The notes beneath the pieces are model-generated. The model made no database searches, was not told where the DNA came from, and worked only from the letters and a program-made list of their open reading frames with translations. From Verrucomicrobiota bacterium (GTDB taxonomy: Bacteria > Verrucomicrobiota > Verrucomicrobiia > Chthoniobacterales > UBA10450): a stretch of 33,653 nt of DNA. The stretch covers positions 1-33,653 of the forward strand of contig QHRJ01000004.1 in assembly GCA_003220075.1 (NCBI GenBank), in the 5' to 3' direction. The first letter of the stretch is position 1. Every line of letters begins with the position of its first letter. Shown here piece after piece: positions 7,926 to 30,857 of this stretch. The translations under genes and the position numbers were made by a program.

Positions 7926-10900
7926 GTGGGTTCGAAGGTCGTCGAAAAAAATTGCGCCTCCCCGAAAGCTTTCGGAGCTGCGCGCGGGTGTGTCGAAATC
8001 CGCGGTGCTCGCCAGAATAACCTCAAAGGCATCGATCTCGATCTTCCGCTTGGAAAGCTGACCGTTGTCACTGGCCCGAGTGGAAGCGGAAAGTCTTCGC
8101 TCGCTTTCGACACAATCTATGCCGAAGGGCAGCGCCGCTACGTCGAAACCTTCAGTCCTTACATGCGGCAATTCCTCGAGCGCATGGATAAACCGCGGGT
8201 CGAGGACATTCGCGGAATTCCGCCAGCGATCGCGATCGAGCAATCGAACCTGGTAAAGACGTCACGCTCCAGCGTTGGCACCATCACGGAGATCAACGAT
8301 TTCTTGAAGCTATTTTGGACCCGCACGGCGCGCGCGTTCTGTCCAAGCTGCGGCCGCGAAATTCGCCCCGAAACGGCGAAGACGATCTCGGATCAAGTGC
8401 TCGCATTGTTCGCGGTTCGTCATTCAGAAGGTAACGCCGGTGCACAAACCATTCTCATCACCTTCTGGGTCGCCGTTTCGGCGAAGGCCAAACCGCGCGA
8501 GTTTTTCCAGTTTCTTCAGCAACAAGGCTACCTGCGTGTTTGGCTGAACAACAAAATCATCCGCGTAGATAGCGACGCAAAAGTCGAGCGCCTCGGCGCG
8601 CGCGTTCAAGTCATCCAGGATCGCATCGTCGTCAGCGAGGAAAATCGTGCGCGATTAACTGAGGCCATCGAGATAGCGCTTCGTTTCGGTAAGGGCAAAA
8701 TCAACGTCATTCCGTTTCCTGCGGAGGCAGGTGCGTCGCCTGCAATTTCGAAGACCGCGGTCGACGCGGCCGCCGCTACAGGTCACGAATTCCCATTCTC
8801 CACCGGCTGGCACTGCGCGCATTGCGATCTCGACATTCGACCGCCTACGTCGGGGCTTTTCAGCTTCAATAATCCACTTGGCGCGTGTCCGGAATGCCGT
8901 GGGTTCGGTCGCACCATCGCGATCGATCTGAATCGCGCGATTCCGGACCGATCCCTCTCGATCGCGCAAGGGGTGGTGCGCGTTTTTCGCGGGCAGGAAA
9001 TGGGCGAATCGCAAAAGGATCTGCTGCGTGCCTGTGCCCGCGAGGAGATCGATGTGCATAGGCCTTTCGAGGAACTGCCCAAGGCCGATCAGGATTTTGT
9101 CATTAACGGCGAGAAACATGCGGGCGAATACACCGATGACGATTACGAAAATAATCGCTGGTACGGAGTGCGCGGTTTCTTTCGCTGGCTCGAATCGAAG
9201 ACTTACAAAATGCACGTGCGCGTGCTGCTCAGTCGCTATCGCGCTTATGTAAAATGTCCAAGCTGTGACGGTGGACGCTACCAACCGGAGACGCTGAATT
9301 ACAAATTGGAGGGACGCGCGCCGTCGCGTCCCAAGAATGGTGCCGACAGCGCGGCGCCCTCCAAGCTCACTCTCCCCCAATTCGCCGCCCTCCCGATTTC
9401 TGACGCGCGCGATTTACTGGCGCACATCGAAATCGCGCCGGATGACAGCACTGCGGAAATGCTGCGCAACGAAATTTGCGCGCGACTCCGTTACCTTTGC
9501 GAAGTCGGCGTCGGTTATCTCACCCTCGATCGTTCCACTCGCACCCTGAGCGGCGGCGAAATGCAGCGGGTCAATCTCACCACCTGCCTCGGCGCGTCGC
9601 TCGTGAACACGCTCTTCGTCATGGACGAACCAAGCGTTGGATTGCATCCGCGCGACGTCGGGCGGCTCGTGCGAGTGATGCACAACCTGCGCGATAAAGG
9701 CAACACCTTGCTCGTGGTCGAGCACGATGAACAAATCATCCGCGCAGCGGACAATTTGATCGACATCGGCCCCGGTCGCGGCGAACGCGGTGGCGAGTTG
9801 GTCTTCATCGGTCCGCTCGATGAATTTGTAGGTAGATCCCTCACGCGCGATTACCTGAGCGGTCGCAAATCCATCCCGATCCCAAAATCACGGCGGAAAT
9901 TCACTTCTGTGGTCAAAATTGCCGGCGCGATTGAGCACAATCTCAAGAACGTCGATGTCGAAATCCCACTCGGAATTTTTACCGCCATTACTGGCGTTTC
10001 CGGCTCGGGAAAATCGACCCTGATTCAGGATATATTGTATCGAAATCTTTTGCGGGCGAAGGGCCAACCAAGCGAACACGAGCCGGGCGCATGCCGGAGA
10101 GTGACTGGCGCACATCGCTTCAACGAAATTGTCATGGTCGATCAATCGCCACTGGCGCGCACCCCGCGTTCGACGCCCATCTTGTATCTTGGGCTTTATG
10201 ATCGGGTGCGCGAACTTTTCGCCGCCTTGCCGGAAGCGCAGGCGCAAGGACTGACCGCGAGCGCATTTTCGTTCAATTCCGGGACCGGCCGTTGCGAACG
10301 TTGCAACGGCACCGGTTTCGAGAAAATCGAGATGCAGTTTTTGAGTGATCTTTATGTCCGTTGCGCGGAATGCGAAGGCAAACGCTTCCAGCCTCACGTG
10401 CTCAAAATTCAGCTCCACGGAAAATCGATTCACGATGTGCTCGAACTTACGGTTACGGAAGCGGCCGCCTGGTTTGCCCAGATCGGCGAGGGCGAAAGAT
10501 TATCCGACCCGCTGGAAGTTCTCGAAGAAGTCGGGCTTGGTTATCTTCGGCTTGGCCAACCGCTCAACACTTTGTCCGGAGGCGAATCGCAGCGTCTAAA
10601 ACTCGTTAGTCACCTTGCTGACACATCTGGGGTGGCGGGCGTGTCGCCTGCGAACAAAAACCGTGCAGCCGGCACGGCTGCCTCTACAGAAAAAACCGCG
10701 AATCTCTTTATCTTCGACGAACCAACCACCGGACTGCATTTCGATGATGTCGCGATTTTATTGCGATTGTTCCAGCGATTAATCGATGCCGGGCAGTCGC
10801 TCGTGGTGATCGAGCATAACCTCGAAGTGATTAAATGCGCCGACTGGATCATCGATCTCGGACCCGAAGCGGGCGAGGAGGGCGGTGAAGTTGTTGCCGT

Positions 10901-13871
10901 TGGAACACCAGAACAGATTGCGAAGGTTGAGCGCTCGCATACGGGAAGGTTCTTGAGGAGCGTCATCCCGAGCGCAGTCGAGGGATCCCGTCGCAAAAAC
11001 TTCAAGGTAACGCAACGGGATCCTTCGACTCCGCTGCGCTACGCTCAGGATGACGGGGAGGAATTTGCGTTACGCGTCGCGGAAGAGCCGTCCGGCAGAA
11101 TGCTCGCGCGCTCCCGACAAAATATCGCGAGCGGCGCCATCCAAATTCATGGCGCGCGCGAGCATAATTTGAAAAACATCGATGTCGCGATCCCGCGCGA
11201 CCAGATGGTCGTGATCACCGGCCTGAGCGGGTCAGGAAAATCAACGCTCGCTTTCGACATTTTGTTCTCGGAAGGCCAGCGCCGCTTTCTCGACAGCATG
11301 TCTCCCTATGCCCGACAATTCGTCGAGCAACTGGAAAAACCGGACGTCGATCTGGTCGAAGGGTTGCCGCCGAGCGTCGCGATCGAGCAGCGTGTCACAC
11401 GCGGGGGCGGGAAATCAACCGTCGCGACGGTGACGGAAGTTTATCATTTCCTGCGGTTGCTCTTTGCCAAAACCGGCACGCAATTCTGTCCGGATTGCAA
11501 TCTGCCGGTCGAAAAACAAACTCTGGCTGCAATCGTAAAACAAGTGGAGGCGGCCACCCGCCGTGGTCCACTCAAGGTGCTGGCGCCGCTGGTAAAGGCG
11601 CGCAAGGGGTTTCACACCGATGTCGCGCGTTGGGCGGAGCGCAATGGATTCGACGCCCTTTTGGTCGACGGGCAGCTCGTTCCGGTGGAGCAGTTCCGCA
11701 GGCTTGAGCGTTTCAAGGAACATACCATCGACGTCCTTGTCGGTGTAATCGACAAGAAGCGGATCGCCAAGGCGCGCAATCTCAGCCAGCGCGCGCTCGA
11801 GATTGGTCGCGGCACCGCCCGCCTCGTCGATGCGAAAAATCGAGTCACGGTCATGAGCACGGAGATGAGTTGTCCGGGTTGCGGGCGCGCCTTCGAAGAA
11901 CTCGATCCGCGATTGTTTTCATTCAATTCGCCGCACGGTGCCTGCGAAGAATGCGGCGGCTTTGGCGAAATCTGGAACCAATCGCTCCAAGTTGGCGGAA
12001 GCGAGGATGGCGAATCAGTCCTCGAAAACGAGCTGACCGCCGAACGTGAATCGGAATGGATCGACGAAAGTGAAGCGCAGATCTGCCCGGCTTGCCACGG
12101 CTCGCGTCTGAACGCGGTCGCGCGTCACGTGCGCGTGCAAAATATGACGATCGACGATTTTTCGGCGCTTTCCGCCGCCACTGCTGCCAAGCAAATCGGA
12201 CGATTAAAATTTAGCGGCAAACAAAAAACCATCGCGAACGAATTGATTCCGGAAATAGTGCAGCGCCTTCGATTCATGAAGAATGTCGGTCTCGGCTATT
12301 TGTCGTTAGGTCGATCGGCCAAGACTTTGAGTGGCGGTGAATCTCAGCGGATTCGCCTGGCGGCGCAGCTCGGCTCGAATTTGCGTGGCGTCCTCTACGT
12401 GCTGGATGAACCGACCATTGGTTTGCATCCGCGCGATAATGTGCGGCTGCTCGAGACGCTGGCCGCATTGCGCGCAAAAGGGAACTCACTCGTCATTGTC
12501 GAGCATGACGAAGCAACCATGCGTCGCGCCGACCACATCATTGATCTCGGCCCGCGCGCCGGGATTCACGGCGGCGAAGTTGTGGCCAGCGGATCGCTGC
12601 GTGAAATCGAGCGCGCGAAAGATTCCGAGACCGGACGTTGTCTAAAAACGCCGCTCTGCCATCCCATTCGCAAATCGCGGCGAAGCCTGCGCGCTGTTGC
12701 GAGTTGGGTCGAGATCAGGAATGCGCGGGCGAACAATCTGAAAAACATCGAGGTGAAGTTTCCCGTCGGTCGCTTGTCGGTCATCACCGGAATTTCCGGC
12801 AGCGGCAAATCCACCTTAATGGGCGACGTCCTTTTACCGGCCGTGCATGAGCAACTAAATCGAAAACGTCAACGCACCGGCGAGTTATTCGAGCGAGTTG
12901 AAGGCATGGAGGCGATCGATGCGGTTTACGAAGTCGATCAATCACCCATCGGGAAAACTTCGCGCTCGACCCCAGCAACCTACATCAAAGTCTTCGATGA
13001 GATTCGCAATCTTTACGCACAAGTTCCGGTTGCGCGCATGCGCGGTTACGGCCCGAGCCGGTTCTCCTTCAACGCCGAGGGCGGACGTTGCGAGTCGTGC
13101 AAGGGCCAGGGCATGATCAAATTGGAGATGAATTTTCTGCCGAGCACCTACGTGCCCTGTGAAGATTGCGGCGGGAAACGTTACAACGCCCAGACTCTCG
13201 AAGTTCTTTACCATGAAAAATCGATCGGGGACGTAATGGAAATGACGATCGAAGAAGCGGCCGAATTTTTCAAAGCCAACCCCAAGGTCGCGCGATCCCT
13301 TTCACTGCTCGTCGATACCGGACTCGGTTATCTAAAGCTGGGGCAGCCGAGCCCGACTTTGAGCGGCGGCGAAGCGCAACGGCTGAAGCTAGCGACTGAG
13401 CTAACCCGCGGGATCGGCCGCGTGCAAAACGAACGGATCCGTAAAATGCGCCGACCGAAATCGACGCTCTATCTACTAGAGGAACCGACGATTGGGTTGC
13501 ACATGGCCGATGTTGAATTGCTGCTGAACTTGCTGCACCGGCTGGTAGATGACGGTCATACCGTCATCGTGATTGAGCACAATCTCAGCGTAATCGCGGA
13601 AGCGGATTACATTGTCGATATCGGTCCGGAAGCCGGCGAGGCCGGCGGTGAGATCGTTGCCACCGGGACACCGGAGCAGGTCGCAAAAAGCCGGCTGAGC
13701 CGCACCGCGCCATTCTTGCGGGAAGTTCTGGCGACGAAGAATGACGGCGCCGTAAGACCGAGCTGGCGCAAGAACGGAGAACCCTCACCTGGCGCTTCGC
13801 GTACGGTCTCCCGCCGGAATTCCCAAGACACCCGCGACCTATGTCCTCCTCTCCCTGTGGGAGAGGATTGA
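7926..13871 (+). CDS. uvrA: Giant tandem excinuclease ABC subunit A (two UvrA copies fused, four ABC modules)
   Basis: Four Walker A motifs ([48 protein letters not shown]), four signatures ([44 protein letters not shown]) and paired UvrA zinc fingers (CERCNGTG...CAECEGKRF and CESCKGQG...CEDCGGKRY). Confidence 0.95.
8719..8783. repeat. In-frame repeat-like insertion in uvrA (gcggaggcaggtgcgtcgcctgc ... gcggccgccgctacagg)
   Basis: Translates as low-complexity [21 protein letters not shown] inside a conserved UvrA region; core resembles the repeat at 10631-10690 (GTGTCGCCTGC / GTGCGTCGCCTGC). Confidence 0.65.
9307..9363. repeat. In-frame palindromic insertion in uvrA (ggagggacgcgcgcc ... ggcgccctcc)
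   Basis: ggagggacgcgcgccgtcgcgtcccaagaatggtgccgacagcgcggcgccctcc: arms GGAGGG...GCGCGCC / GGCGCCCTCC; translates as [19 protein letters not shown]. Confidence 0.75.
10631..10690. repeat. In-frame repeat-like insertion in uvrA between an ABC signature and Walker B
   Basis: ggtggcgggcgtgtcgcctgcgaacaaaaaccgtgcagccggcacggctgcctctacag; translates as [19 protein letters not shown]; internal GCAGCCGgCACGGCTGC hairpin. Confidence 0.75.
10961..11055. repeat. In-frame CGTCATCCCGAGCG...GATGACG palindromic element in the uvrA inter-copy linker
   Basis: cgtcatcccgagcgcagtcgagggatcccg ... cgggatccttcgactccgctgcgctacgctcaggatgacg; same family as 20992-21082 and 30761-30857. Confidence 0.92.
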
Positions 13872-19953: not shown

Positions 19954-21411
19954 CTAGCGAACGACTGGATAGCGCCGAGCCAGCTCGCGCCGGCTGGTTT
20001 TGCCGCGTTCATTTACCGGGATCGCCTCCACGAAATAAATGCGGCGCGGCACCTGCCAACTGCTCAGCCGCACCCGACAATGCGTGAGCAATTCTCTCTC
20101 GCTCAAGCCTTTCGCTACCACGCAGGCGGCGATTTCTTCATTCCGACGCTCCGATTCGCGACCGAAAACGATCGCCGCTCGCACTCCCTGGCAGCGCAAG
20201 ATTTCGGCTTCCACTTCCGCTGGATGCACTTTCTTGCCGGCGACGTTGATCAAGTCTGAGCCGCGTCCGACGATCCGGTAACCCCCCTTCGTTTTTTCCA
20301 ACAAGTCATCCGGGGCAAAAATGCCGTGGCCCAGTTTGTCTTCATCAGGCTCGGGGAAATAACCGGCGGCCACCGCGCGACTTCGCACCCGAATGGGCGA
20401 GATCGGATTGTCGGGATCGACCTGTTCAATCTCAACTCCGGACATCGCCTCACCAACAAATCCCTGGACCGGCTGCGCTTTACGGACGTAACAAATTCCG
20501 CCACACTCCGATGCGCCATAAAAGGAGTGGATCTCGCGTCCGAATTTTCCGCAAAAGCCTTGCGCGGTTTCCGACGGCAAGGGCGCTCCGGCCGAAATGC
20601 AAAGCCGTAAATCCGGTAAAGAGGGCGCCTGGGCCATTTCGCAAAACGATTGGTAGAAAACCGGCATTCCCGGAAAAACACTCGCGCGAGTCGCGGCGAG
20701 GGCGTCGATGATCGCTCGCGGCATCCGATCGCTACTGAGCGCAAGCGAAACGCCGCGCACGATGAGCGGCGTCAGCAAATTGCTAAAGCCATAGGAATGC
20801 GAAATTGGGATGACGCCAAAGTTCAAGTCGCGCTGGCTGATGCCCATCGTCTCGCAAATGTTCTCGCAATCGGCCAGCAATTGTTCGCTGCGAAAACGAA
20901 TCGCGCGCGGCGCGGCGGTGGTGCCAGACGTGAGCTTCAGTAGCGAAGGACGCTGGCCCTGCCAGTCGATCGGTCCGGCCGCCACCATAGGCCTGTCATC
21001 CCGAGCGGAGTCGAGGGATCCCGCGGATGTTACCTTAAAGATTACGCAGCGGGATCCCTCGACTTTCGCTCGGGACGACAGGCTTGCGAGAGCAGCTAGA
21101 TTGAAGATTTGAAAAGCGCTTTTTCTCTGTTCCTCCGCAATCGTCTGTTCCAGTGGGAGAACGACAAGTTGCTTCCGCAGGCACGCCAGAAACAACGATG
21201 GCCAATCCGGATGATTGCCGATTTGGATTGCGACCACTCTGCCTGGTTCAATCGCTTTCAGCTCGGCCGCGAAATGCTCGGCGCCCTCCTCAATTTCAGA
21301 AAATGTGCGCGCGACTCTCCCTTGGGCGTCAAAGATGGCGGCGCGATCACGGTTCTTTGTGCGGGTAGCTTCCCACACCTCGAGAATCCGGTCGCCTAAT
21401 GTGGTCCTCAC
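19954..21411 (-). CDS. AMP-dependent synthetase/ligase (acyl-CoA synthetase-like)
   Basis: [59 protein letters not shown] and NERGKTSRREL motifs of the ANL superfamily. Confidence 0.9.
   Translation of the reverse strand: MRTTLGDRILEVWEATRTKNRDRAAIFDAQGRVARTFSEIEEGAEHFAAELKAIEPGRVVAIQIGNHPDWPSLFLACLRKQLVVLPLEQTIAEEQRKSAFQIFNLAALASLSSRAKVEGSRCVIFKVTSAGSLDSARDDRPMVAAGPIDWQGQRPSLLKLTSGTTAAPRAIRFRSEQLLADCENICETMGISQRDLNFGVIPISHSYGFSNLLTPLIVRGVSLALSSDRMPRAIIDALAATRASVFPGMPVFYQSFCEMAQAPSLPDLRLCISAGAPLPSETAQGFCGKFGREIHSFYGASECGGICYVRKAQPVQGFVGEAMSGVEIEQVDPDNPISPIRVRSRAVAAGYFPEPDEDKLGHGIFAPDDLLEKTKGGYRIVGRGSDLINVAGKKVHPAEVEAEILRCQGVRAAIVFGRESERRNEEIAACVVAKGLSERELLTHCRVRLSSWQVPRRIYFVEAIPVNERGKTSRRELARRYPVVR
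20992..21082. repeat. In-frame CCTGTCATCCCGAGCG...CGGGACGACAGG palindromic element in the AMP ligase gene
   Basis: cctgtcatcccgagcggagtcgagggatcccgcggatgttaccttaaagattacgcagcgggatccctcgactttcgctcgggacgacagg; core nearly matches 30761-30857. Confidence 0.93.
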
Positions 21412-22833: not shown

Positions 22834-22958
22834 TGTCATCCCGACCGCAGCGAAGCGTAGTCGAGGGATCCGGCGGCGTTAGGATAAAGCTGTCGCAAGC
22901 GGGTTCGTCGACTTTCCGCCTTCGCCAGGCTGAGGCGCAGAGCTCGCGCGGAACGACA
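22834..22958. repeat. Diverged TCATCCCGA...GATCC palindromic element between prfA and prmC
   Basis: tgtcatcccgaccgcagcgaagcgtagtcgagggatccggcggcgttaggataaagc ... gttcgtcgactttccgcc...cgcggaacgaca; same left arm as the 10961 and 20992 copies. Confidence 0.8.
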
Positions 22959-28268: not shown

Positions 28269-30617
28269 ATGAGGGTCCTCATTGCAATCAGTTTTGCGCT
28301 CACGACATCACTTCTCGGACAAACGCCAGCGCCCGCTATTTCCAGCGGCAAACATCCTTTCACTTTCGAAGACATGATGAAGCTCAAACGCGTCGGCGCG
28401 CCCGTGCCGTCCCCGGATGGGTTATGGGTCGTGTTCGATGCGGAAGATGTCGATCTGGAGGCGAACGTAAAAATTTCGCATTTGTGGATCGTGCCGGCGC
28501 AAGGAGGAGAATCGCGCCGGCTCAACCCGACTCCAAACCATGAGGAACGACCACGTTTTTCTCCCGATGGCAAACGGCTCATTTGGACGTCGAAAGCGAC
28601 CGATCCGACGCAAATCTGGATGTGCGACTTTGATACGAATGCGGGAGGCCTCATTGGTCAGCCGCATCAGCTGACAAACATTTCGACCGGCGCGGAAGGC
28701 GCGATCTGGTCGCCGGACGGGAAGAACATCGTGTTCGTGTCGGCGGTGTATCCAGATTGCAAGGATGACCCGTGCAACAAGCAGCGCGACGACGAACTGA
28801 AAAACAGCAAAGTGAAAGCTAAGACTTTCACGCGCTTGTTTTATCGGCATTGGAACGCGTTCACCGAATTCAAGCGCAGTCATTTGTTTGTCGTTAGCGC
28901 GGATGCAACCGCCGACCGGAACACAGACTCGCAGTCTGTGCGCCCAGCGGAGTTGAACTCCGCTGAATCCGACAAAACCCAGACAGCGGAGAGCATCTCC
29001 GCTGGGCGCACAGGGCAGAGCCCCGTGTTCCGACAGCCGCGCGATCTCACCCCGGGGGATCACGATGTCCCGCCGTTCCATCTCGGTGGGCAGGACATGT
29101 ATGCGATTTCGCCTGACGGCCAGGAGGTGGCTTACACCAGCAACATCAACGAAGTGGAGGCGACCAGCACGAACAACGAAATTTTCATCGTGCCGATGGC
29201 CGGCGGCGCAGCCAAGAAAATTTCCACCAGTCCCGGCAACGATTCGACCCCGCTCTATTCCCCGGACGGAAAATACATCGCCTGGCGATCGCAAGCGCGC
29301 GCCGGCTTCGAGGCGGATAAATGGCGGCTCTTCGTGCAAGATCGACAATCAGGGAAGACGCGCGATCTGACTGAGAAGTTTGATCGCTCGGTCGGCAGCT
29401 ACACTTGGACAATCACGCCCGCGCCGTATGACAAGCCAATCAGACCGATAATTTTCTCTGCCGAAGATCACGGCGAAGCGCCGCTGTTTTATAATGATGT
29501 CGAGGGCGATGAGCCGCCGATAAGATATGGCGGCTTGCATGCCGACGATCTGATCTTCGCAAAGAGCTCAGCTGAAATCGGCAGTTTGTATTTCGCGAAT
29601 ATGTCGATCCAAGCGCCAAATGAAATTTGGCGAATGGATTTTCCTTCACCGAAAGGCAAAGTTGGTTCAGAGCCCGTCACGCACATGAACGACGCGCTGC
29701 TGTCGCAGATCGACATGCAGCCGCTGGAATCGTTCACGTTTAAGGGTGCGAATAACGACGATGTGCAGGGATTGATGGTTAAGCCGCCGGGATTCGATCC
29801 GGCGAAGAAATATCCGCTGAAATTTTTGATTCACGGCGGGCCACAAGGGGCCTGGGGAAATTCGTGGACGTATCGCTGGAACGCGGAGTTGTTCGCGGCG
29901 CCATCTTCGCCGCAGTCGGTAGGGCGAGAATCTGTCGAGCGGAAATCCGGTACATCGCCTGACGGCTCGACGGAGTCTTCCCCTACCAAAGCAAACTCGT
30001 CTCTCGCGAATGGTGCCACGGACGGCTACGTCGTCGTGATGATCAATTTCCATGGCTCCACCGGATACGGGCAGAAGTTTACCGACTCGATCAGCGGAGA
30101 TTGGGGCGGGAAACCGTATGTCGATCTAACGAAGGGCCTCGATTATGTCGAAAAAACATATCCGTTCATCGACAAAAATCGCGAGGCTGCGCTGGGCGCG
30201 AGCTATGGCGGTTACATGGCCAACTGGTTGCTAGGCCACACCGATCGTTTCAAGTGCATCGTGTCGCACGACGGGATTTTCAATACGGAATCTGGTTACG
30301 GAACGACGGAAGAGCTTTGGTTCCCGGAATGGGAGTTCAAAGGGCCGCCGTGGAAACAGCGCGAGCTTTACCGGAAATTTTCGCCACACCTCTTCGCCGA
30401 GAAATTCAAAACGCCGACGCTGGTGATCCATGGACAGAATGATTATCGACTCGATGTCAGTGAAGGGTTTCAGCTCTTCAGCACGCTTCAGCGACTAAAG
30501 GTGCCCTCAAAGATGTTGTATTTCCCGGATGAAGGGCACTGGGTGTTGAAGCCGCAGAATTCGCAGCTGTGGTACAAAACGGTGAACGACTGGGTGGATC
30601 AGTGGTGCGGGAAGTAA
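28269..30617 (+). CDS. S9 family prolyl oligopeptidase / acylaminoacyl-peptidase with signal peptide
   Basis: Signal-like MRVLIAISFALTTSLLG; WD40-like beta-propeller repeats (SPDGKNIVFVS, SPDGKYIAWRS); catalytic GASYGGYMANWLLGH, HGQNDYRLDV and DEGHWV. Confidence 0.93.
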   Translation: MRVLIAISFALTTSLLGQTPAPAISSGKHPFTFEDMMKLKRVGAPVPSPDGLWVVFDAEDVDLEANVKISHLWIVPAQGGESRRLNPTPNHEERPRFSPDGKRLIWTSKATDPTQIWMCDFDTNAGGLIGQPHQLTNISTGAEGAIWSPDGKNIVFVSAVYPDCKDDPCNKQRDDELKNSKVKAKTFTRLFYRHWNAFTEFKRSHLFVVSADATADRNTDSQSVRPAELNSAESDKTQTAESISAGRTGQSPVFRQPRDLTPGDHDVPPFHLGGQDMYAISPDGQEVAYTSNINEVEATSTNNEIFIVPMAGGAAKKISTSPGNDSTPLYSPDGKYIAWRSQARAGFEADKWRLFVQDRQSGKTRDLTEKFDRSVGSYTWTITPAPYDKPIRPIIFSAEDHGEAPLFYNDVEGDEPPIRYGGLHADDLIFAKSSAEIGSLYFANMSIQAPNEIWRMDFPSPKGKVGSEPVTHMNDALLSQIDMQPLESFTFKGANNDDVQGLMVKPPGFDPAKKYPLKFLIHGGPQGAWGNSWTYRWNAELFAAPSSPQSVGRESVERKSGTSPDGSTESSPTKANSSLANGATDGYVVVMINFHGSTGYGQKFTDSISGDWGGKPYVDLTKGLDYVEKTYPFIDKNREAALGASYGGYMANWLLGHTDRFKCIVSHDGIFNTESGYGTTEELWFPEWEFKGPPWKQRELYRKFSPHLFAEKFKTPTLVIHGQNDYRLDVSEGFQLFSTLQRLKVPSKMLYFPDEGHWVLKPQNSQLWYKTVNDWVDQWCGK
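28919..29034. repeat. In-frame GGAACACAG...CGTGTTCC palindromic element in the S9 peptidase gene
   Basis: cggaacacagactcgcagtctgtgcgcccagcggagttgaactccgctg ... cagcggagagcatctccgctgggcgcacagggcagagccccgtgttccg; several nested hairpins, same outer ends as 3007-3057. Confidence 0.93.
29918..29987. repeat. In-frame GGTAGGGCGAGAATCTGTCGAGC...GCTCGACGGAGTCTTCCCCTACC element in the S9 peptidase gene
   Basis: The left arm and the reverse complement of the right arm (ggtaggggaagactccgtcgagc) agree at most positions; translates as VGRESVERKSGTSPDGSTESSPTK. Confidence 0.88.
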
Positions 30618-30620
30618 CGT

Positions 30621-30739
30621 GCCGTCATCCCGAACGAAGTGAGGGACCTCGCAAAAACTTCGTGGCTGCCGCGTATTTCCTTGTGTGATCAAGAGCTTAG
30701 GTGAGGTCCCTCGCCGCCTTTCACGGCTCGGGATGACAA
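30621..30739. repeat. GTCATCCCGAACGAAGTGAGGGACCTCGC...GGTCCCTCGCC...CGGGATGAC palindromic element
   Basis: ccgtcatcccgaacgaagtgagggacctcgc ... gaggtccctcgccgcctttcacggctcgggatgacaacg: complementary arms. Confidence 0.88.
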
Positions 30740-30760: not shown

Positions 30761-30857
30761 CGTCATCCTGAGCGAAGCGTCAGCGAAGTCGAAGGATCCC
30801 GCGGTGTTACCTTAAAGGTTGCGCAACGGGATCCCTCGACTCCGCTCGGAATGACAA
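30761..30857. repeat. GTCATCCTGAGCGAAG...GGATCCC...TCGGAATGAC palindromic element
   Basis: cgtcatcctgagcgaagcgtcagcgaagtcgaaggatcccgcggtgttaccttaaaggttgcgcaacgggatccctcgactccgctcggaatgac; core matches 20992-21082. Confidence 0.92.

Follow-up and report, generated by a model that had tools for sequence, protein, structure and literature searches.

The gene for an AMP-forming ligase of an uncultured soil Verrucomicrobium (Spartobacteria/Chthoniobacterales) contains, in frame, a 91-bp palindromic element of a family that is dispersed across the host genome. This element is very probably a non-autonomous repeat that is translated and tolerated in a permissive loop of the enzyme, such loops being places where elements are gained, lost, swapped and inverted. 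The window, i.e. the whole stretch of 33,653 nucleotides that was analyzed, comes from a draft genome (370 contigs, 85% complete; G000 below), has a coding fraction of 0.895 (89.5%) and, when compared in its entirety with Rfam, gave no family match. The features of the ligase gene and of the dispersed family (family 1) in the window are the following.

10962-11054, minus strand: family-1 copy read as part of the tandem uvrA gene, in frame (family profile)
19954-21411, minus strand: gene for an enzyme of the ANL superfamily, an AMP-forming acyl-CoA ligase/synthetase, with the element in its reading frame (PF00501, E 2e-39; PF13193, E 1.5e-12)
20905-20931, minus strand: A3/P-loop motif TSGTTAAPR, residues 161-169, 20 residues past the insert
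20989-21081, minus strand: codons of the element-encoded peptide LSSRAKVEGSRCVIFKVTSAGSLDSARDDRP, residues 111-141 (ORF translation)
20992-21082, no strand assigned: family-1 element, a dispersed, CGTC/TGTC-tagged imperfect palindrome (core 20995-21079 fits the 84-position family profile with 80.4 bits)
20992-21024, plus strand: left arm of the hairpin, with the TGTC tag and ATCCC...GGGATCCC (DNA fold)
21025-21048, plus strand: asymmetric loop gttaccttaaag, which sets the orientation of the element (DNA fold; conserved across family copies)
21049-21082, minus strand: right arm of the hairpin, the left arm inverted (DNA fold)
22835-22915, minus strand: degenerate intergenic family-1 copy after a prfA-like gene (family profile, 32.8 bits)
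30624-30737, minus strand: longer, divergent intergenic relative of family 1 (family profile, 17.5 bits)
30762-30855, minus strand: intergenic family-1 copy, named in the original prediction (family profile)

The 91-bp element with near-perfect, albeit imperfectly palindromic, ends (CCTGTCATCCCGAGCG and CGCTCGGGACGACAGG) is found at 20992-21082 as originally quoted, and the core that was said to be common to the ligase copy and the intergenic copy at 30762-30855 shows 92% identity over 37 nt. As single-stranded DNA, the element is predicted to pair about 32 bases per side around a 24-nt loop, with a folding energy of -36.4 kcal/mol (z = -10.2 against shuffled sequences), and the gene-strand RNA of the same 91 nt folds at -68.8 kcal/mol (z = -11.8 against shuffles), so that the palindrome lies far beyond chance expectation. 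The stable fold is that of the whole 84-91 bp pair and not that of a single unit, which consists of a 5-bp stem (ATCCC/GGGAT) with a 12-nt loop and folds no better than shuffled sequences. The tag of the ligase copy is TGTCAT.

In a BLAST search of the host genome, about 40 places were listed for family 1 (80 rows, the palindrome matching on both strands), among 201 first-look candidates. A profile of 84 positions, built from the host-genome copies and reading, by eye, roughly GTCATCCCGAGCG-AAGTCGAGGGATCCCG-(TGGAAGTTACCTTAAAGGTTTCGCGG)-CGGGATCCCTCGACTTCGCTCGGGATGAC, detected 64 copies in 252 kb of sampled host-genome sequence. When applied to 691 kb from the genus, it detected 204 copies, of which 183 are full length; this sample was drawn around high-scoring copies and hence is not a random draw. 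Nearly all copies are inverted pairs with the tags pointing outward. The base that precedes GTCAT is C in 77, T in 48, G in 43 and A in 5 of 173 copies, and because C or T occupies this position in 125 of the 173, the ends of the family are read as CGTC/TGTC. Flanking direct repeats of 2-6 bp occur at the level of shuffled sequences, i.e. no target site duplication was detected, and no insertion-site consensus was found beyond the terminal C/T and G/A of the element itself. Of the 30 Y1_Tnp genes examined in the genus, none is accompanied within 400 bp by family-1 units both upstream and downstream, and none of the RAYT genes examined is flanked by family 1 on both sides.

Copies of family 1 are strongly depleted from genes. 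Under a conservative test (an open frame through the element, flanked on each side by no fewer than 50 codons with a coding-like composition), only 16 of the 179 scorable full-length copies (~9%) lie in genes, compared with ~90% coding DNA; against a coding fraction of 0.85, the binomial test gave 1e-113. The 16 are a lower bound (for example, the copy in the G008 ligase, described below, went uncalled) and are spread over 8-9 different genes, the hosts being tsaD, miaA, a VOC-domain protein gene, a PutA-like bifunctional enzyme (putA), the error-prone polymerase DnaE2 (dnaE2), a ResB-like gene, uvrA and the ligase. The same register, VIPS(E/N/G)VEGSR..., is used in 11 of the 16 in-gene calls, or about 6 of 9 when counted by independent site, a bias that is suggestive only. 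When the six frames were checked in 57 full-length copies, each proved open in only 12-27 of them; a special coding bias, with one register free of stops in all copies, is thus unsupported, and the common register looks, from these frame counts, like a survivor effect. The original suggestion that the element is tolerated as coding sequence in different readings is borne out only in part: the ligase ORF indeed reads it in a register other than that of uvrA, whereas the frame comparison across the in-gene copies of the genus sample revealed one common register in most of them. The strand of reading matters little because the element is a palindrome.

Other dispersed repeats are also read in frame in genes of the window. 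The UvrA protein encoded at 7926-13871 has a tandem architecture and hence double length (1981 amino acids); its gene carries in frame, at 10617-10705, a fourth dispersed repeat, present in about 17 other places of the host genome, so that at least two repeat families are represented in this gene, and two further stretches look like more repeats. The gene for an S9 peptidase contains, in frame at 28936-29013, an inverted repeat (CTGTGCGCCCAGCGGAG...CTCCGCTGGGCGCACAG, encoding TDSQSVRPAELNSAESDKTQTAESISAGRTGQSPV). The repeat belongs to a third dispersed family, found several dozen times in the host genome, and the Y1-transposase gene on contig C318 is flanked by copies of it.

The ligase gene itself is intact. 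The minus-strand ORF is open throughout the element and, as originally proposed, yields LSSRAKVEGSRCVIFKVTSAGSLDSARDDRP (residues 111-141) shortly before the P-loop, TSGTTAAPR starting at residue 161. The motifs A3, A5, A8 and A10 are present (at 161, 298, 382 and 467), as are both the AMP-binding and the C-terminal domains; the relatives in the PDB include 8weu and 4fuq, and a Foldseek search with the structural model returns ANL enzymes. The gene has named relatives in metagenome-assembled genomes of Verrucomicrobia, Spartobacteria or Chthoniobacterales. The orthologues in the genus are intact, with 65-86% identity, and the dN/dS ratio outside the linker is 0.15-0.24 (about 0.2), which indicates that the ligase is under purifying selection. 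These two observations rule out a pseudogene, one of the outcomes that the original prediction had named as refuting it.

The insert lies in the linker between the LACLR motif and A3, which spans 53-111 residues among the homologues measured and varies in the solved ANL relatives as well. The AlphaFold (AF2) model is weak (mean pLDDT 61.7, from 13 sequences) and places residues 112-156, mostly at low confidence, between strands 105-111 and 157-160; it agrees with a disordered segment only and is too weak for precise placement of a loop. Together, the variable linker length, the variation among solved relatives and the low model confidence point to an insert in a naturally variable loop. Thus, the structural check suggested originally yielded a poorly ordered, length-variable stretch, from which a surface position may be surmised. 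The central claim, an in-frame insertion of a dispersed repeat that is tolerated as coding sequence, is supported by the other copies, the relatives without the element, the lack of the peptide at this position outside the genus, the purifying selection and the variable loop.

Comparison of the same linker across relatives shows how changeable its content is. In the G008 orthologue, a family-1 element is found at the same junctions, the whole element being inverted relative to G000. The linkers of G003 and G006 hold other variants, and those of G002, G004, G007, G009, G010, G005 and G001, as well as of species of other genera, hold an unrelated palindrome of the GTAG type (family 2; GTTGTAGCTGCCGCCGTCGCCGGCGGCAGA..., inverted, translated as AAAVSGGRDVQILPPETAAATT). 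Other ligase homologues have neither element in the linker, and no copy of the peptide turned up at the linker position outside the genus when it was looked for in unrelated taxa. The alignment proposed to define an empty site accordingly yielded relatives free of family 1 at the linker but no clean empty site because the nearest relatives hold the GTAG element, which also prevents an exact reconstruction of the insertion event. A single simple insertion within the genus is not claimed either, given that the sister pair G003 and G010 carries different elements in the linker. On a ligase tree of 29 sequences, built with the linker left out, the CGTC state requires 4 changes, 3 of them forced by well-supported branches, and the three linker states together require 8. 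Judged from this gene tree, the linker is a recurrently occupied spot, with at least 3-4 switches.

The same seems to apply to other loops. The loop that is occupied in tsaD, in miaA and in the VOC gene varies in content from one species to another, holding either differing variants of the element or other repeats. The copy in the VOC gene of G000 is inverted relative to those of G002, G004 and G007 (identity 0.88, 0.86 and 0.83 inverted, compared with 0.81, 0.71 and 0.72 direct). At the miaA loci L231-L241, the content of the loop RAIEIA|...|GVLLLRDRDDLY changes with almost every species, being of family 1, GTAG-like or of another kind, which makes it a second recurrently occupied loop. Conceivably, such a linker could be a targeted hotspot, in which the mobilizing enzymes prefer a DNA site or hairpin-prone sites rather than a permissive loop. 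The fact that CGTC and GTAG elements take turns at one place on the tree, the differently occupied loops of miaA, tsaD and the VOC gene, and the similar left junctions of G000, G008 and G003 (TCGCAA followed by (C)CTGTC or GCTGTC) would fit this possibility; however, the host sites have no obvious sequence in common, neither a target duplication nor a consensus beyond the terminal C/T and G/A of the element is seen, and the copies are strongly depleted from genes overall, all of which makes a hotspot unlikely.

The inversion in the ligase linker is well defined. When the elements of G000 and G008 are compared in inverted orientation, 85 of the 91 positions agree (93%), compared with 73 of 93 columns (78%) in direct orientation, and an arm-specific extra base moves along with the inversion. 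Apart from itself, the window's copy matches none of the copies searched better than that of G008, which is, therefore, most simply viewed as the orthologous insertion after an inversion in place. The two orientations encode different peptides, LSSRAKVEGSRCVIFKVTSAGSLDSARDDRP in G000 and LSFRAESRDPPDVTLKITHRDPSTCARDDRP in G008. A more speculative and rather improbable extension is that permissive loops serve as exchange sites, where unrelated palindromes swap and invert with the frame kept and a single inversion replaces a loop of 30 residues, resulting in a loop diversity of housekeeping enzymes that resembles phase variation.

Between G000 and G008, the element has accumulated 6 differences in 91 positions compared with 75 in 405 in the flanks (p = 0.004), i.e. 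it is better conserved than its surroundings, which is not expected of a purely neutral insert unless the copy is young or has been exchanged. This conservation, along with the recurrence of the VIPSEVEGSR register in 11 of the 16 in-gene calls, could signify that the peptide was recruited as a regulatory or structural segment of the ligase and is under selection; the sister enzymes, however, carry the peptide of the inverted element (LSFRAESRDPPDVTLKITHRDPSTCARDDRP), the GTAG peptide or nothing, with the gene intact in each case, and recruitment appears quite improbable. The peptide is most likely neutral because the sister enzymes lack it or carry another. A role at the level of nucleic acid, with an mRNA hairpin or a cruciform tuning ligase expression, could be envisaged from the very stable predicted RNA hairpin (-68.8 kcal/mol) but has little to recommend it: the same intact gene exists in the closest relatives without a family-1 element, intragenic copies are rare and their position is not conserved across the family. 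An artefact, whether misassembly at the palindrome, which short-read assembly of a draft genome (370 contigs, 85% complete) can mis-orient, or a decaying pseudogene, is hardly credible considering the orthologous element at the same place in the independent genome G008, the open frame with a dN/dS of about 0.19, and the same pattern in several genes and genomes.

Dispersed palindromes read as part of genes are, as a kind, already known, from the intragenic REPs described in 2013 and the earlier Rickettsia palindromic elements (RPEs). In the survey by Di Nocera et al. (2013, PMC3733652), CGTC- and GTAG-tagged REPs are described as mainly intergenic, with a minority in frame in genes of many species. 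The hosts named there include uvrA (Verrucomicrobia included; this gene also has double hits), DnaE2, and DNA repair and tRNA genes; the largest number of intragenic GTAG copies is given for the Verrucomicrobium Opitutus terrae, and recB of two Xanthomonas provides a single precedent for distinct REPs in roughly the same position. According to the same survey, CGTC repeats carry a terminal CGTC, TGTC or CCTC tag, have no dedicated transposase, consist of units with an 8-9 bp stem and a 4-5 nt loop that mostly form inverted (HH) dimers, and are listed in five phyla, Verrucomicrobia not included. Family 1 resembles these repeats in its CGTC/TGTC tag, the stem starting with AT, the spaced inverted pairs, the mainly intergenic location with an in-frame minority, and the lack of transposase association (0 of 30 Y1_Tnp genes), but its unit has a 5-bp stem and a 12-nt loop instead of 8-9 bp and 4-5 nt. 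Because its unit hairpin departs from the definition, family 1 is better described as CGTC-tagged and REP-like than as a CGTC REP. Elements inverted in place, or a linker that holds CGTC and GTAG elements in turn, are not described in the parts of PMC3733652 that were consulted.

The RPEs, among which PMC3733652 classes RPE-4 and RPE-6 with the CGTC REPs, are the classical case of dispersed palindromes in frame in unrelated housekeeping genes, nearly half of those of R. conorii lying in ORFs (PMC10969869). Like the RPEs, which are translated and apparently compatible with protein function, family 1 is read in frame in several unrelated genes; unlike them, it has only ~9% of the scorable copies in genes and differs in sequence and host phylum. 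Bacterial MITEs (PMC10969869) are likewise short, non-autonomous and dispersed, with terminal inverted repeats, and are sometimes fused in frame, but they derive from DDE transposons, whereas family 1 has no target site duplication, no parental transposon was found, and the palindrome spans nearly the whole element. From GTAG REPINs, family 1 is set apart by its tag and by the RAYT genes examined, none of which it flanks on both sides.

Family 2, on the other hand, matches the GTAG REPIN/RAYT systems. Dispersed in all 11 of the 11 genomes of the genus, it has a GTAG-tagged unit hairpin with a 9-bp stem (GTTGTAGCTGCCGCCGTC...), forms a perfect inverted pair at L012:1813-1883, and flanks a RAYT gene (L203:1833-2544, contig C74 of G005) with units on both sides, one more unit being located inside its coding sequence; on these sequence criteria, family 2 is a GTAG REPIN. 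GTAG elements are also found in frame in an apparent ATP-dependent DNA ligase gene (L072:697-762 and L072:1468-1533; L206:2001-2064), with two copies in one gene, followed by the motif VYVEDKFDGIRA. Three details appear new: the occurrence in Verrucomicrobia of long hairpins with a CGTC tag, the inversion of elements in place and, on the ligase tree, the alternation at a single protein loop of element families unrelated to each other; a literature search of incomplete coverage found no description of such elements in Spartobacteria.

The favored explanation, a tolerated non-autonomous palindrome, can be put together as follows. Family 1 is a CGTC/TGTC-tagged inverted pair with a long hairpin and no target duplication, and would be spread by an enzyme acting in trans, a putative transposase, possibly of the HUH type; a single-strand (HUH) mechanism would fit since target duplications are absent. 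Selection would remove most insertions in genes, such that the survivors stay open and sit in permissive loops. The ligase copy, with its in-frame length, freedom from stops in the register used, and location in what is probably a surface loop free to vary, would be translated and tolerated rather than removed. Permissive loops of this kind would repeatedly gain and lose elements, or have them replaced by family 1 or the unrelated GTAG REPIN, and an element could be inverted in place when its long arms recombine or when strands are switched between them.

The ligase linker amounts to a well-resolved natural experiment on the entry of mobile repeats into proteins, in which one enzyme loop holds, depending on the closely related species, a CGTC element, its inverse, a GTAG REPIN or nothing while purifying selection persists. 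Intragenic REPs are hereby extended to CGTC-tagged long hairpins in Verrucomicrobia, and elements that turn in place bear on REP-type movement and recombination. There is also a warning for genome annotation: peptides such as VIPSEVEGSR... and AAAVSGGRD... represent repeat DNA, not protein domains.
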